The notes under the pieces were generated by a model, which made no database searches, was not told the origin of the DNA, and saw only the letters and a program-made list of their open reading frames with translations. Shown in pieces: positions 32,843 to 38,154 of a DNA stretch of 40,242 nt; position 1 is the stretch's first letter; every line of letters begins with the position of its first letter. The stretch comes from Candidatus Thorarchaeota archaeon (GTDB taxonomy: Archaea > Asgardarchaeota > Thorarchaeia > Thorarchaeales > Thorarchaeaceae): contig JAUWOA010000008.1 of NCBI GenBank assembly GCA_030612365.1, forward strand, positions 1 to 40,242, given 5' to 3'. A program made the position numbers and the translations under genes.

Positions 32843-32888
32843 TTCATGTAGTTCAACGCACCAGACGTTGAGGCGGTGACACTTGGCT

Positions 32889-33392
32889 GTGGCGATGAGG
32901 ATCATATCAGTGATTGGCGGGGCAGACAGCAATCAGGAAACCTTAGAGCTAGCTGAAAGCATTGGAGAGGAGATTGCGAAAAGAGGCGTTGTTCTCCTGT
33001 GTGGGGGTCTCGGAGGAATCATGGAAGCTGCATGCAGAGGCGCAAAGAAGCACGATGGGCTTACGATTGGAATCCTACCAACAGACGCCAAGGAACATGC
33101 GAATCAGTACGTCGATATTGCCATACCCACAGGTCTGGGTTATGCGCGCAATTTCTTAGTAGCCAAGGGTGGGGATGGAGTAATAGCTATTGATGGCTCT
33201 GCAGGAACATTGAGTGAGATGGCAATCGCGTGGTTCTCTGACAAGCCAATTGTAGCGCTAGCACAAACCGGTGGATGGGCTGGAGAACTCGCTGGCAAGA
33301 GAATCGATTCCCGTCGCTCAGATGTTGTCCATTCCGCTTCAACACCTGAAGAGGCAGTGGATATGGTCTTGAAAGCCCTTGGTTGGGACTGA
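32889..33392 (+). CDS. TIGR00725/LOG-like Rossmann-fold protein
   Basis: A 167-aa cytoplasmic protein. Visible are a first strand and glycine turn (SVIGGADSN), CGGLGGIMEAACRGA and GSAGTLSEMAIAW. The latter corresponds to the PGGxGTxxE signature of the lysine-decarboxylase-like (LOG) superfamily, with Gly-Ser-Ala replacing Pro-Gly-Gly. The TIGR00725 branch is related to molybdenum-cofactor carrier proteins, not decarboxylases, so nucleotide or cofactor binding is the most that can be said. GTG 32889 is preferred: GGTGA lies 9 bases upstream; ATG 32895 is also possible. It is the first gene of a plus-strand pair with the PPP phosphatase, 18 bases apart. Confidence 0.82.
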   Translation: MAMRIISVIGGADSNQETLELAESIGEEIAKRGVVLLCGGLGGIMEAACRGAKKHDGLTIGILPTDAKEHANQYVDIAIPTGLGYARNFLVAKGGDGVIAIDGSAGTLSEMAIAWFSDKPIVALAQTGGWAGELAGKRIDSRRSDVVHSASTPEEAVDMVLKALGWD

Positions 33393-33410
33393 TACCAGAG
33401 GATGCGTTCC

Positions 33411-34250
33411 GTGAAACTCGTCAAAGATGTACTCGGCGGAAAGAAAGACATCACGGCGGAGGATGTCAAACAGCTTGTCGGAATGATGTGCGATTTGTAT
33501 GATTCCCAGCCCAATGTAGTAGAAATTCCTGGAAGACGTGTGATCTTTGTTGGTGACCTTCATGGAGACCTCGATTCTGCTTTAGCAGTCCGAGACTACT
33601 TCCTGAAGTCGAAGGACTACTCCATGGTCTTCATGGGGGACTATGGCGACCGGGGGCCAGCTCAAGTTGAAACGTTCAATCTCGTCATGGCGCTTGCACT
33701 GCAGTTTCCGGACCGTATCATAATGCTCCGCGGCAATCACGAGTCGGATGAGGTTGCCACAAGGTATGGCTTCTATATGGACATCAGTCGCAAGTATTCT
33801 CATTCCATGTTCGAACATTATCTGAACGTGTTCACGGTTCTACCTCTTGCTGGATTTAGCGACAACGGTATCTTCTGTTGTCATGGCGGGATTCCAGAGA
33901 ATGTCAATAATCTGAGCCAGATTCTCGCAATCGATAGATGTTTCCCCAACTTCCCGGACGATATTGCCTATCAGATGGTCTGGAATGATCCCAAGGACCG
34001 TGACTTCGATTTCAGACCAAGCTGTAGAGGTCAGAGAATGAAGTACTTTGGCCAGGCTGCCTTTGACCGGTTTGCGGCTGACATGGGCATAGAGCTCATG
34101 CTAAGAGGTCATGAGGTCTTTGAGGAAGGTTTCAAGAGCTTCTTTGGAGGAAGGCTATTCAGTGTATTCACTGCAACAGCAGGAGGGACAGTGAAACCAA
34201 AGATGGCACGACTGAAGGATGACCTTAGAATCAAACCTGTTCCGATATGA
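33411..34250 (+). CDS. PPP-family serine/threonine protein phosphatase
   Basis: A 279-aa metallophosphatase of the PP1/PP2A type. The signature motifs appear in order: GDLHG (48-52), GDYGDRG (76-82), RGNHE (107-111), then CCHGGIP and LRGHE. All metal-binding Asp, His and Asn residues are present; the usual Val in GDxVDRG is Gly. Two metal ions would activate water to remove phosphate from Ser/Thr. GTG 33411 is chosen over ATG 33402 because AGAGG ends at 33401, leaving 9 bases to GTG but none to ATG. It lacks long regulatory extensions. Partner kinases are not in the window. Co-transcription with the Rossmann-fold gene is likely. Confidence 0.9.
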   Translation: MKLVKDVLGGKKDITAEDVKQLVGMMCDLYDSQPNVVEIPGRRVIFVGDLHGDLDSALAVRDYFLKSKDYSMVFMGDYGDRGPAQVETFNLVMALALQFPDRIIMLRGNHESDEVATRYGFYMDISRKYSHSMFEHYLNVFTVLPLAGFSDNGIFCCHGGIPENVNNLSQILAIDRCFPNFPDDIAYQMVWNDPKDRDFDFRPSCRGQRMKYFGQAAFDRFAADMGIELMLRGHEVFEEGFKSFFGGRLFSVFTATAGGTVKPKMARLKDDLRIKPVPI

Positions 34251-34388: not shown

Positions 34389-35471
34389 ATGCCAAAGGTA
34401 GCCGTCGTCAAGACCTCTCCAAAAACAGTCTATGATGACATTGCGCGGCTCATGGATTTCGCGGATTATGATAAATTCGTATCAAAGGATGTCATGACGA
34501 CAATCAAGCTCAACCTCTCTTGGAGCAAATTCTACCCAGCTTGTTCAACGAATCCCTACATCTTCGATGGTTTGCTAAGAAAGCTCATCGCAGATGGGTT
34601 TGATAATCATAACATTCAGGCTGTTGAGAATGAAACAGTTGTGACCAACATCTACGCAGGAACAAAAGGGAATAACTGGTACCCAGTCATGAAGAAACAC
34701 AGGATCAAATTCCTGCCGTTAATCAATGCAACATACGTTGGTGTGAAGCTTCCAAGGAAGACACTTGTTCTAGAGGACATCTTCGGTGAAGTGATTGCTC
34801 CCAAGGAAATCTTCGGCACGAATATCATCCATTTGCCTACGATAAAGACACACGGTCACACTCAGATGACTGGGGCGCTCAAAGACTCCTTTGGCCTTTA
34901 TCTAACAAAGAATCGACATTTAGCTCACCTGAAGATACACGAAGTTCTGGTTGACCTTCTTCTGCTGCAGAAGACGATTTCCCATTCTGAGTTCGTCATT
35001 ACTGATGGTAGTGTTGTCGGCGATGGACCCGGTCCACGCACCATGATTCCCAAGATTGGGAACGTCCTTGTAGCAAGCAGCGATATGGTTGCAGCAGACA
35101 CAGCGCAAACCCGCTTGATGGGCATTGACCAAAGACTAGTTCTCAAACTTCAGATGGCCAAAGAGCTTGGTCTTGGGGAATCAGACCCAGAGAAGATTGA
35201 ACTTACAGGCGACTTTGAGTCATGGGATGACCTCCCGAACTTTCACCTTAGTCCGGGTAAGAGCCCTGTCATAACTTGGAATCGAGGGTTCCTGAAATTT
35301 CCGGGGATGGAGACATTTCTATTCAAGTCCCCGTTGATGTGGCTGCCCACTCAGCTATCGGGTCTGTATCATGACGCGTTCTGGCTGCCAATAAAGGGCA
35401 AGAAGTGGGTCCGCTGGTTCCTTGAGGAAACGGAGTGGGGTGAACTCTGGAAGTCTTACTCGACGGAATAG
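34389..35471 (+). CDS. DUF362-family protein
   Basis: A 360-aa protein. The opening strand (VAVVKTSPKTVYDDI), TIKLNLSW, ADTAQTRLMGI and especially the middle HLPTIKTHGHTQMTGALKDSFG match the DUF362 domain, whose biochemical role is not established. There are no ferredoxin-type cysteine clusters, unlike some members, only one Cys (YPACSTN). The last 60 residues contain aromatic and hydrophobic patches (FKSPLMWLPTQLSG) that may touch the membrane. It starts the group with the UbiA-like, PHP and flippase-like genes; its stop lies 12 bases before the UbiA-like start, so a shared transcript and pathway are likely. Function within that pathway unknown. Confidence 0.85.
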   Translation: MPKVAVVKTSPKTVYDDIARLMDFADYDKFVSKDVMTTIKLNLSWSKFYPACSTNPYIFDGLLRKLIADGFDNHNIQAVENETVVTNIYAGTKGNNWYPVMKKHRIKFLPLINATYVGVKLPRKTLVLEDIFGEVIAPKEIFGTNIIHLPTIKTHGHTQMTGALKDSFGLYLTKNRHLAHLKIHEVLVDLLLLQKTISHSEFVITDGSVVGDGPGPRTMIPKIGNVLVASSDMVAADTAQTRLMGIDQRLVLKLQMAKELGLGESDPEKIELTGDFESWDDLPNFHLSPGKSPVITWNRGFLKFPGMETFLFKSPLMWLPTQLSGLYHDAFWLPIKGKKWVRWFLEETEWGELWKSYSTE

Positions 35472-35483
35472 GAGAAGATTGGA

Positions 35484-36437
35484 ATGGCAGCAAAAGATTA
35501 CATTCGGCTTATGCGACCTCATCAGTGGTACAAGAATCTCTTGGTATTCCTAGCGATAGTCTTTGTAGAGATACCAACAGCATGGCCATGGGAGACCTTG
35601 CCTGCGGCGTACAATTTCTGGAACTACCCTCCGCTGATTGTGGGTTTTCTGGTGTTCTGTGCTGTTTCCAGCGCGGGGTACATATTGAACGACATTACAG
35701 ATCTAGAGCAGGATGCCGTGCACCCTGAGAAAAAAGAACGACCATTACCCTCTGGTCGCGCATCGAGCAGGTCTGCCAAAGGACTGGCGGTCATGCTCTT
35801 GGTAGTTGGATTTTCAGTGGCATATCTCGAGAATGTACTCTTCCTTATCATCGTTCTCATGTACTTCGTTAACTCACAGCTCTACAATTACTTCTTGAGG
35901 AAGTGGGCCGTTGTTGATGTCGTCGATATCGCTTTTGGTTTCGTTCTAAGGGCTATTGCTGGAACCGCTATCCTACTAGTGCCTTTCACATCCTGGCTTG
36001 TGATCGGGGTCTTCTTCTTTGCGCTCATCCTAGCATTTGGTAAGCGAAAGAACGAACTTCAATACCTTGGAGAGGATGCAGCGAAGCACAAGCCTGTGTT
36101 CACTCAATACACTGAGGCGATGCTTGACCAAGGCATAACAATGTCTGCCACTTGGCTAGTTCTCTTCTATGCACTCTACACGTACAACAATTTCCCCGGA
36201 GAGATGATGGTGTACCAGCCCGTGATGATGACCGTACCGATTGTTGCCGGACTAATCCTTCGCTATGTTTACCTCATCCAGACAGGCAGCCCTGTGGGCA
36301 GAAAACCGCACCTTGCTCTAAAGGACAAGGGGATCCTGTTCGGCGTCGTGCTGTTTGTCATAGTGCTTGGGGTAGCGCTATTCTTCTGGCGGGGAATTCT
36401 TGAGTTTCTCCTGACTGTGTTCCCGTTGTTTCCGTAG
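35484..36437 (+). CDS. UbiA-family enzyme, decaprenyl-phosphate phosphoribosyltransferase-like
   Basis: A 317-aa protein with about eight or nine membrane helices. RPHQWYKNLLVF near the start, ILNDITDLEQDAVHPEKKER with the Asp-rich NDxxDxxxD motif, DVVDIAFGFVLRAIAG and FGKRKNEL are the features of polyprenyl-phosphate 5-phosphoribosyltransferases (Rv3806c type) rather than of quinone or heme prenyltransferases. The reaction would join polyprenyl phosphate with PRPP to give polyprenyl-phosphoryl-ribose 5-phosphate, on the cytoplasmic side. GGAGA lies 7 bases before ATG and overlaps the end of DUF362. The next gene is a PHP phosphoesterase-like protein, a fitting partner. Other UbiA substrates remain possible. 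Confidence 0.8.
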   Translation: MAAKDYIRLMRPHQWYKNLLVFLAIVFVEIPTAWPWETLPAAYNFWNYPPLIVGFLVFCAVSSAGYILNDITDLEQDAVHPEKKERPLPSGRASSRSAKGLAVMLLVVGFSVAYLENVLFLIIVLMYFVNSQLYNYFLRKWAVVDVVDIAFGFVLRAIAGTAILLVPFTSWLVIGVFFFALILAFGKRKNELQYLGEDAAKHKPVFTQYTEAMLDQGITMSATWLVLFYALYTYNNFPGEMMVYQPVMMTVPIVAGLILRYVYLIQTGSPVGRKPHLALKDKGILFGVVLFVIVLGVALFFWRGILEFLLTVFPLFP

Positions 36438-36446
36438 GTGCATACG

Positions 36447-37127
36447 ATGAACGACAGGCTTTCCGCCTTTGACTTGCACTTTCACACGCTCTACTCCAAG
36501 GACGGCCTGAACAACCCCCGAATGCTCTTCAAATACATGAAGCGCCACGGTCTCAGAGGAATCGCCCTTACAGAGCATTGGAAACCATCCATCCTGAAGG
36601 TCATCAAAAGAAATGGACGGTTTCTTTTGCCAGCTTGCGAGTACAAATGTTCCGACTATGGAGAGCTCATTGGATTGTTCATATCCGAGCCAATTGAGAA
36701 CCGGTCATTTGTCGAGATTGCAGAGGACATCCATGCACAAGGCGCGATAACGATTCTCCCGCATCCAATGGATCCCTTGAGAAAGCACACCGCGTTAAGG
36801 CGGGGCTTACCTGAGGAGCTAGTTAAGAAACATGTGGACCTGATTGAGGGAATAAACTCCCGATGCATGGTGAACCTGTTCAATACATGGGCGCAGAAGC
36901 TAGCCAAGCGCCTTGGCAAACCAATGACTGCAGGAAGCGATGCCCATTCCTTCCTGGAGATAGGACATGCGAAAACTTGGCTTCAAGATATCGAAACAGC
37001 AGATGACATCTACGATGAGCTAAGGAAAGGTAGGACTCAGATTGCCGGCTACTGCTCATTTCCCTTGGTTCACCTTCCATCCGTATTCTGGCAAAGAATG
37101 AGGAGAATTGCCTATGACGAATGGTGA
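36447..37127 (+). CDS. PHP-domain metal-dependent hydrolase
   Basis: A 226-aa soluble protein. PHP motifs appear in order: DLHFHTLYSKDG, ALTEHW, CEYKCSD, LPHPMDP, GINSRCM and GSDAHSFLEIG, giving the full set of His, Glu and Asp ligands for a trinuclear metal centre. PHP proteins include phosphatases such as histidinol-phosphatase and nucleases. ATG 36447 is chosen over GTG 36438 because AGGTG at 36436-36440 is then 6 bases upstream. It lies 9 bases after the UbiA-like gene and overlaps the next gene by 14 bases, so translation is probably coupled. By context it may remove the 5-phosphate of a lipid-linked ribose (inference). Confidence 0.85.
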   Translation: MNDRLSAFDLHFHTLYSKDGLNNPRMLFKYMKRHGLRGIALTEHWKPSILKVIKRNGRFLLPACEYKCSDYGELIGLFISEPIENRSFVEIAEDIHAQGAITILPHPMDPLRKHTALRRGLPEELVKKHVDLIEGINSRCMVNLFNTWAQKLAKRLGKPMTAGSDAHSFLEIGHAKTWLQDIETADDIYDELRKGRTQIAGYCSFPLVHLPSVFWQRMRRIAYDEW

Positions 37128-38154
37128 GGAAATTTCAACACGGACAGGAAATGAATTCATCAGTATCAGAAAGCTGATTGCATTCGTACTCATAGGAGCT
37201 GTCGTCTATCTTGCAATACTATTCTATGTTCAGATCGACCCGGTAATTGCTGCGATTAGCTCCATTCCGTACTGGATTCTGCCTGCTATGATTACCCTAT
37301 CGTTCCTGAACTATTTGATCCGGTATGTGAAATGGCAGTACTACCTGCGCCGCATCGACATCAACCTTAGTCACGCTGATAGCCTCAGCATTTTTCTGGC
37401 GGGTTTCTCGCTCACTACTACTCCGGGCAAGATGGGGGAAGCTGTAAAGGGCGTCTTCATCAATGACATAGACGGAACACCCCTGGCTAAGACCGCTCCT
37501 GTAGTAGTTTCAGAGAGAGCGACTGATCTCATCGCGATGATTGTTCTTGCGCTGGCCGGTTTTAGTATTGGTTTTGCGGGTGGAGATCAGCTCTACCTTA
37601 TTGTGTTGCTTGGAGCTGCGGCAGTCGTAGGCGCGGTAATTCTGGGTCGTAGTGAATTCTATAACGGAATCCTGCAAAGGCTAACTTCTTTTGGACCACT
37701 AAAGAGATTCTCGAATAACAGCAATTTGATTGTCGATACTATGACTAAGACGATGTCGCCAAAGCCAATGGCAGTAAGCACGGCGATTAGTGTTCCTGGG
37801 TGGTTCATGGAATGCATAGCACTATGGCTACTTCTCAGTATTCTATCTGGTGCAGGGTTTCCATCGCTTTCTCAAGCCTCGCTGTTTCTGCTTCTGCAGG
37901 CAACGTTCATCCACGCAACAGCGTCCGCCATCGGAGCAGTTTCCTTCTTGCCGGGAGGACTCATTGCCTATGAAGGTACAGCTGGCATACTGATTCCACT
38001 CTTGCTCGGTTTCACCGAAAGTCAAGCTGGAGTTGCGATAATCATCATAAGATTTGTAACTCTCTGGTTCAGCGTTATAGTTGGATTTGTGGCTCTTGCA
38101 GTTGTGGAGAGAAGACGTCGTGTGCGGGAGCAGAGTGGTTCCCATCAAGCTTAA
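37114..38154 (+). CDS. flippase-like integral membrane protein (LPG synthase TM / UPF0104 family)
   Basis: A 346-aa protein with about eight membrane helices. The pattern LSIFLAGFSLTTTPGKMGEAVKG, VVSERATDLIAM and SAIGAVSFLPGGLIAYEGTAG is diagnostic of the lysylphosphatidylglycerol-synthase membrane-domain family (TIGR00374), found in archaea in AglD-like proteins and thought to move lipid-linked sugars. No aminoacyl-transferase domain is attached. GAGGAGA at 37100-37106 sets ATG 37114 as start. The 14-base overlap with the PHP gene ties it to the UbiA-PHP pair. It is the last gene before a new promoter-like box for TyrRS. Confidence 0.85.
   Translation: MTNGEEISTRTGNEFISIRKLIAFVLIGAVVYLAILFYVQIDPVIAAISSIPYWILPAMITLSFLNYLIRYVKWQYYLRRIDINLSHADSLSIFLAGFSLTTTPGKMGEAVKGVFINDIDGTPLAKTAPVVVSERATDLIAMIVLALAGFSIGFAGGDQLYLIVLLGAAAVVGAVILGRSEFYNGILQRLTSFGPLKRFSNNSNLIVDTMTKTMSPKPMAVSTAISVPGWFMECIALWLLLSILSGAGFPSLSQASLFLLLQATFIHATASAIGAVSFLPGGLIAYEGTAGILIPLLLGFTESQAGVAIIIIRFVTLWFSVIVGFVALAVVERRRRVREQSGSHQA

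Follow-up and report, generated by a model that had tools for sequence, protein, structure and literature searches.

Lipid-linked pentofuranose donors have so far been described for bacteria. In Citrobacter youngae, a three-component pentofuranose system consists of the phosphoribosyltransferase PPPRS (ORF15), a MATE flippase (ORF14) and the glycosyltransferase GT136 (ORF12), and an accompanying epimerase of the short-chain dehydrogenase/reductase (SDR) type (ORF13) sets the pentose (PMC11127046). The reported gene list of a Halanaeroarchaeum phage-like element includes, near one another and left uninterpreted, genes for a PHP protein, an adjacent phosphoribosyltransferase (PRTase) and a NAD-dependent epimerase (PMC4866403). 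In a search of the open-access literature, with subscription papers outside its reach, we found no paper describing a lipid-linked pentofuranose pathway in archaea. Here we describe a four-gene cassette from a Candidatus Thorarchaeota (Asgard) archaeon that may encode such a pathway. It lies on a stretch of 40,242 nucleotides (contig JAUWOA010000008.1 of assembly GCA_030612365.1, positions 1 to 40,242 of the forward strand), which we refer to in full as the window.

The cassette genes all lie on the + strand. They encode a DUF362 protein (34389-35471; 360 aa; Pfam PF04015, 5.6e-20), a UbiA-superfamily polyprenyl-phosphate PRTase (35484-36437; 317 aa; Pfam UbiA, 7e-24; NCBIfam NF008977; PDB 8j8j), a PHP-domain metal-dependent phosphoesterase that is a candidate phosphoribose 5-phosphatase (36447-37127; 226 aa; Pfam PHP_C, 4e-15, and PHP, 8e-6), and an LPG_synthase_TM / TIGR00374 flippase-like membrane protein (37114-38154; 346 aa; Pfam PF03706, 6e-38). 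As Pfam and NCBIfam profile matches, these four family assignments are secure. With the conserved ATG starts, DUF362 and UbiA are separated by 12 bases; the 9-base gap between UbiA and PHP and the 14-base overlap of PHP with the flippase-like gene are as a first-pass annotation of the window had described them, along with the four open reading frames themselves. Alternative starts are possible for PHP (GTG at 36438, against the conserved ATG at 36447) and for the flippase-like gene (TTG at 37108, against ATG at 37114).

We propose that the cassette probably serves to synthesise a pentose linked to polyprenyl phosphate and to export it for use in a surface glycan. In the scheme that we infer, including every substrate, every reaction direction and the part given to DUF362, UbiA, working on the cytoplasmic side of the membrane, would transfer 5-phosphoribose from phosphoribosyl pyrophosphate (PRPP) to a polyprenyl phosphate of dolichyl type, and the PHP enzyme would strip the 5-phosphate to give polyprenyl-phosphoryl-ribofuranose. 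The LarA-fold DUF362 protein may then tailor the lipid-linked sugar, perhaps by epimerisation, before the LPG_synthase_TM protein carries the product across the membrane; a GT-C glycosyltransferase, of a kind whose genes accompany the cassette in other archaea but not here, would use it. If this is true, the pathway has an archaeal version whose phosphatase and flippase are unrelated to the bacterial ones and which extends to haloarchaea and methanogen relatives as well as Asgard archaea. It would also offer a concrete role to the uncharacterised DUF362, for which fold and conserved residues suggest chemistry of the LarA kind.

A phosphoribosyltransferase-type UbiA and its recurrent neighbours

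The window UbiA matches NCBIfam decaprenyl-phosphate phosphoribosyltransferase models at 139-198 bits and PRK08238, a related UbiA model, at 143 bits, while no other UbiA model scores above 60 bits. Its best PDB match (E=6.5e-27) is the 8j8j structure of mycobacterial Rv3806c. Structures and PRPP contacts of Rv3806c have been described, and its phosphoribose-binding sites are reported not to be conserved in other UbiA enzymes (PMC10994848). When eleven PRPP/Mg contacts of Rv3806c were compared with the window UbiA, eight were identical, two conservatively changed and one lost. By alignment, R22, K28, Y70, N73, D77, K87, R90, Y138 and K143 of Rv3806c correspond to R11, K17, Y66, N69, D73, K83, R86, Y134 and R139 of the window protein, so that the contacts to the 5-phosphate (K28 and Y70) are both retained. 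The conservative changes are K143 to Arg and Y157 to Phe, the latter also reported in some mycobacteria. Most of the mapped contacts are invariant, or nearly so, across 32 archaeal UbiA sequences.

Phylogeny places the protein in the same way. In a maximum-likelihood tree, all 39 PRTase-type rows, Rv3806c among them, fall on one side of a split with support of 96/97.8; two long branches were left out of this tree. The first-pass annotation had named grouping with quinone or ether-lipid enzymes as one of the results that would count against its reading. In approximately unbiased (AU) tests, a grouping of the window UbiA with archaeal ether-lipid-type paralogues was rejected (p=0.00095), as was one with E. 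coli UbiA and MenA (p=0.010). Model ranking, tree and PRPP contacts thus agree with the polyprenyl-phosphate PRTase signature that had been read in this protein, and its sequence places it in the phosphoribosyltransferase clade, outside the equivalog NF008977. In an earlier, looser tree, the bacterial PRTases that were included branch inside the sampled archaeal diversity, and the origin of the pathway thereby becomes a question of interest.

Every one of the 17 Thorarchaeota loci with sufficient flanking sequence keeps the order DUF362-UbiA-PHP-flippase, at UbiA identities down to 57%. Recurrence outside Thorarchaeota is the stronger evidence for linkage. Among 295 genomes of the phylum to which the methanogen-related genome G065 belongs (hereafter the methanogen phylum), this DUF362 subfamily is present in 8 and this UbiA type in 14, with both in 7, and the genes occur in permuted orders: UbiA-PHP-FLIP-DUF362 (L093), UbiA-DUF362-PHP-FLIP (L096), DUF362-UbiA-PHP-FLIP (L099) and UbiA-x-PHP-x-FLIP-DUF362 (L095), where FLIP is the flippase-like gene. 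PHP directly follows UbiA in L098 too, and an Aenigmatarchaeota locus (L050) reads UbiA-FLIP-DUF362. Across 228 Asgard genomes, counted without correction for relatedness, DUF362 is found in 121 and this UbiA type in 109, with both in 102 and neither in 100. The two genes lie within 84 bases of each other in all six genomes of Asgard family f27 that have both, and on one contig within 12 kb in 37 of 45 cases in family f2. Conserved synteny in related genomes, which the first-pass annotation had offered as a check, is therefore seen as a linkage that reappears, with the gene order shuffled, from one archaeal phylum to another.

Two further observations concern these loci. In one methanogen-phylum genome, a PRTase-type UbiA gene is broken by stop codons (G130:C1:865008-865851). 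In several Asgard families, a large M48-peptidase-domain protein is encoded directly before UbiA (L106:5609-8230, L110:5773-8295, L127:2328-5093); the 840-920 aa upstream proteins of other Asgard loci were considered as GT-C candidates, but the three that were scanned are M48-peptidase membrane proteins.

DUF362 and the LarA relation

On its AlphaFold2 model (mean predicted local distance difference test score, pLDDT, 90.9), the cassette DUF362 protein has a LarA-like fold: its 14 best PDB fold matches all belong to the LarA (lactate racemase) family of nickel-pincer nucleotide enzymes (E 6e-6 to 2e-3, TM-score about 0.4). DUF362 and the LarA-family domain DUF2088 belong to the same Pfam clan, CL0471 (PMC11770544). 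In LarA1, K184, R75 and H200 bind the cofactor, K184 being the lysine for the nickel-pincer nucleotide and H200 a nickel ligand, and H108 and H174 act as acid/base. In DUF362, K153, H155, K165 and H180 are invariant among 30 cassette-type sequences, and the KTH155...K165 segment aligns gaplessly to LarA H174...K184, which, by sequence alignment, makes H155 the equivalent of H174, K165 of K184 and H180, one residue nearer, of H200. Of 20,000 column permutations, none equalled the score of this segment for generic DUF362, and 15 did so for the cassette subfamily. Adding generic DUF362 gave a near full-length profile alignment that matched the same segments (P=0.003, with a probability of only 11%), while profile-profile comparison of the cassette DUF362 alone with LarA sequences was not significant. 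Single-sequence and profile searches against PDB sequences found no relative, LarA emerging from the fold search only.

The cassette DUF362 thus has the fold of the LarA superfamily and agrees with it, in residue type and in spacing, at its equivalents of H174, K184 and H200, but sequence identity is about 10-15%. Pfam reports only DUF362 in the protein, with no Lar_N / DUF2088 match; no iron-sulfur domain was found, and hydropathy shows no membrane segment. Clear counterparts of R75 and H108 are not apparent, the H108 site having no conserved His, and the protein is therefore not a LarA. LarC, which is needed for the nickel-pincer nucleotide, is present in 22 of 25 DUF362 genomes (absent from G060, G345 and G457) and is widespread otherwise, so its presence is not specific.

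An in-frame intein (Intein_splicing, 8.8e-22) interrupts the DUF362 gene of several other Thorarchaeota precisely at the K153-T154 junction of the conserved HLPTxKTHGHT motif, in a long form with a LAGLIDADG endonuclease or in a short form (L120:640-3342, L121:5911-8676, L122:6820-8382, L124:6198-8408). Inteins are known to insert preferentially at conserved active-site motifs.

To our knowledge, no member of DUF362 has an established reaction. An epimerase role on the lipid-linked sugar is a reasonable, if unproven, hypothesis, because haloarchaeal cassettes swap in an SDR epimerase and such an enzyme sets the pentose in Citrobacter. More specifically, and with a rather low chance of being right, DUF362 may be a nickel-pincer-type or analogous hydride-shuttling epimerase acting on the polyprenyl-phosphate-linked pentose, in the role of DprE1/DprE2 or of an SDR. 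If true, DUF362 would gain its first function, and LarA-like chemistry would extend from 2-hydroxy acids to a lipid-linked sugar.

An alternative that we think somewhat unlikely is that the pathway consists of UbiA, PHP and the flippase, with DUF362 beside them by chance or in a regulatory capacity and leaving the lipid-linked sugar untouched. Haloarchaeal plasmid cassettes do without DUF362, as do 7 of the 14 UbiA genomes of the methanogen phylum; Asgard family f9 has DUF362 without this UbiA; and, as noted, we know of no established reaction in the family. However, 7 of the 8 methanogen-phylum genomes with DUF362 also have UbiA, with DUF362 inside the cassette at permuted positions, the UbiA-less DUF362 gene of L107 adjoins an LPG_synthase_TM gene, and the very plasmids that lack DUF362 have an SDR epimerase, as in the Citrobacter O2 system. 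Co-occurrence and co-location support DUF362 as a new component, as the first-pass annotation had it, but one that is optional outside Thorarchaeota.

DUF362 without a PRTase-type UbiA occurs in one Asgard family (L107:8824-11033, L108:9164-10201), where the neighbours in L107 are the LPG_synthase_TM gene and genes for two proteins without a Pfam family. In the window, the region directly upstream of DUF362 (32883-34250) holds two genes 9 bases apart, one of the SLOG/TIGR00725 (LOG-like) type and one for a calcineurin-like phosphatase. This pair is retained in Thorarchaeota loci with enough flank and has no match in the other-phylum loci compared.

The PHP protein and the proposed phosphatase step

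The structure model of the PHP protein (pLDDT 92.4) has PHP phosphoesterases, including PsfC and RNase AM, as its closest solved structures, with an amidohydrolase bound to adenosine monophosphate (AMP)/phosphate lower down. The metal-ligand pattern HxH...H...E...H...DxH (H14, H16, H47, E68, H109, D168 and H170) is invariant in 18 sequences, and hydropathy shows no membrane segment. By its model, then, the protein has a PHP metal-dependent phosphoesterase fold, and position and precedent suggest that it acts as a phosphoribose 5-phosphatase. The bacterial plasmids examined carry the same UbiA type with PAP2 (Rhodococcus) or with HAD and GtrA (Lactococcus), and a Flammeovirgaceae plasmid carries it with a flavin adenine dinucleotide (FAD) oxidoreductase and an SDR. 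Since PAP2, HAD or PHP stands beside UbiA according to lineage, unrelated phosphatases appear to fill the same place, and the earlier suggestion that PHP is an unrelated replacement for the 5-phosphatase fits this swapping. In one Asgard f2 genome, a HAD-family hydrolase abuts UbiA with no PHP adjacent (L109:10972-11712).

It is unlikely that the PHP protein is instead a phosphodiesterase that recycles the carrier, or an enzyme acting on PRPP or a nucleotide. Such activities would suit fold matches that include nucleases, nucleotide phosphatases and uncharacterised PHP proteins, and a family broad enough to have a match in 285 of the 295 methanogen-phylum genomes. But PHP directly follows UbiA in Thorarchaeota, in several methanogen-phylum genomes and on haloarchaeal plasmids, and the HAD or PAP2 phosphatase that other lineages place beside this UbiA is of another fold.

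Glycan context and comparison with known systems

The LPG_synthase_TM protein scores 54 bits against TIGR00374 (cut-off 43 bits). After UbiA-PHP in a Methanothrix cassette, the position of the flippase is occupied by a small EamA/SMR-like membrane protein (L049:4388-4750), recalling mycobacterial Rv3789. In L093, L096, L099 and L050, the cassette has PMT_2 GT-C genes in its vicinity; in Thorarchaeota, there are weak PMT_2 matches elsewhere in the genome. The first-pass annotation had proposed that the exported sugar decorates sequon-rich surface proteins. Three large surface-type open reading frames of the window are indeed enriched, with 22, 23 and 33 N-x-S/T sequons against 12, 11 and 19 in shuffles, but they are encoded 13-33 kb from the cassette on the other strand, and composition alone ties them to it. 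The interpretation as a whole is partly supported: the UbiA type and the linkage have held up and the replacement phosphatase fits a wider pattern, while the surface-protein target has no support beyond this composition.

Several observations weigh against an exported pentose donor. The window UbiA scores below the curated NF008977 equivalog cut-off (197.8 against 234 bits), and the ribose contact Gln135 of Rv3806c is not conserved. Thorarchaeota synteny alone is weak evidence, because unrelated neighbours are conserved there as well. The co-occurrence of DUF362 and UbiA in the methanogen phylum (Fisher p=7e-10) is not corrected for relatedness, the two genes are unlinked in Asgard family f20, and some UbiA loci have no PHP gene. 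The PHP family is broad, and a fold match leaves the substrate undefined. Finally, no GT-C or other glycosyltransferase gene lies beside the Thorarchaeota cassette.

This last point bears on a different destination for the product. Instead of feeding a surface glycan, the polyprenyl-phosphoryl pentose phosphate made by UbiA could go into the head group of a membrane lipid or into another pathway, with the LPG_synthase_TM protein flipping that lipid, as MprF-type domains flip lysyl-phosphatidylglycerol; we regard this reading as quite unlikely. Besides the missing glycosyltransferase neighbour, this would suit PF03706, which is named after MprF-type proteins that act on phospholipids, and a match to a glucosaminyl phosphatidylglycerol flippase model, at 42 bits and far under its cut-off. 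Against it, the cassette lies near PMT_2 GT-C genes in other phyla, and haloarchaeal plasmid cassettes adjoin genes for GT39 and for a dolichyl-phosphate (DolP)-mannose mannosyltransferase. That UbiA is an ordinary prenyltransferase of ether-lipid, quinone or haem type, sharing its Asp-rich motif by chance, is very improbable: it belongs to the UbiA superfamily and other Asgard UbiA paralogues match it weakly, but the NCBIfam ranking, best PDB match, tree with AU tests and retained K28 and Y70 contacts all speak for a PRTase.

How, then, does the cassette compare with known and annotated systems? In the mycobacterial decaprenyl-phosphoryl-arabinose pathway (Rv3806c, Rv3807c, DprE1/DprE2, Rv3789), the first enzyme is homologous to the cassette UbiA, with most PRPP contacts kept, and in both cases a phosphatase gene lies beside the PRTase gene. 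The mycobacterial phosphatase is of another family than PHP, however, and a PAP2 gene occupies this place in the Rhodococcus operon. DprE1/DprE2 have no counterpart genes in the cassette, and Rv3789 is an SMR-type transporter.

Closer in gene order are three haloarchaeal plasmids (Halostagnicola, Natronococcus and Haloterrigena; L146, L147, L148), which carry a UbiA-PHP-LPG_synthase_TM core in the same order as the window, with UbiA annotated as decaprenyl-phosphate phosphoribosyltransferase. Unlike the window, they lack DUF362 and have an SDR epimerase and a DolP-mannose mannosyltransferase (and GT39 in two of the three), a gene set suggesting a mobile glycan module.

With the Citrobacter system, the cassette, as we read it, shares a UbiA-type PRTase using PRPP, a phosphatase step and a dedicated flippase, all encoded together, and the optional sugar epimerase and GT-C transferase of Citrobacter have counterparts in the cassette scheme. 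The families differ: the phosphatase is HAD in Citrobacter and PHP in the cassette, the flippase MATE as against LPG_synthase_TM, and the extra enzyme an SDR as against DUF362 with its LarA fold. Citrobacter also has a linked glycosyltransferase gene, whereas none is adjacent in the window, and the host of the cassette is archaeal. We read the cassette as an archaeal form of the known polyprenyl-phosphate pentose pathway, with phosphatase and flippase families of its own and DUF362, of LarA fold, as a partner, and our confidence in the core is good.

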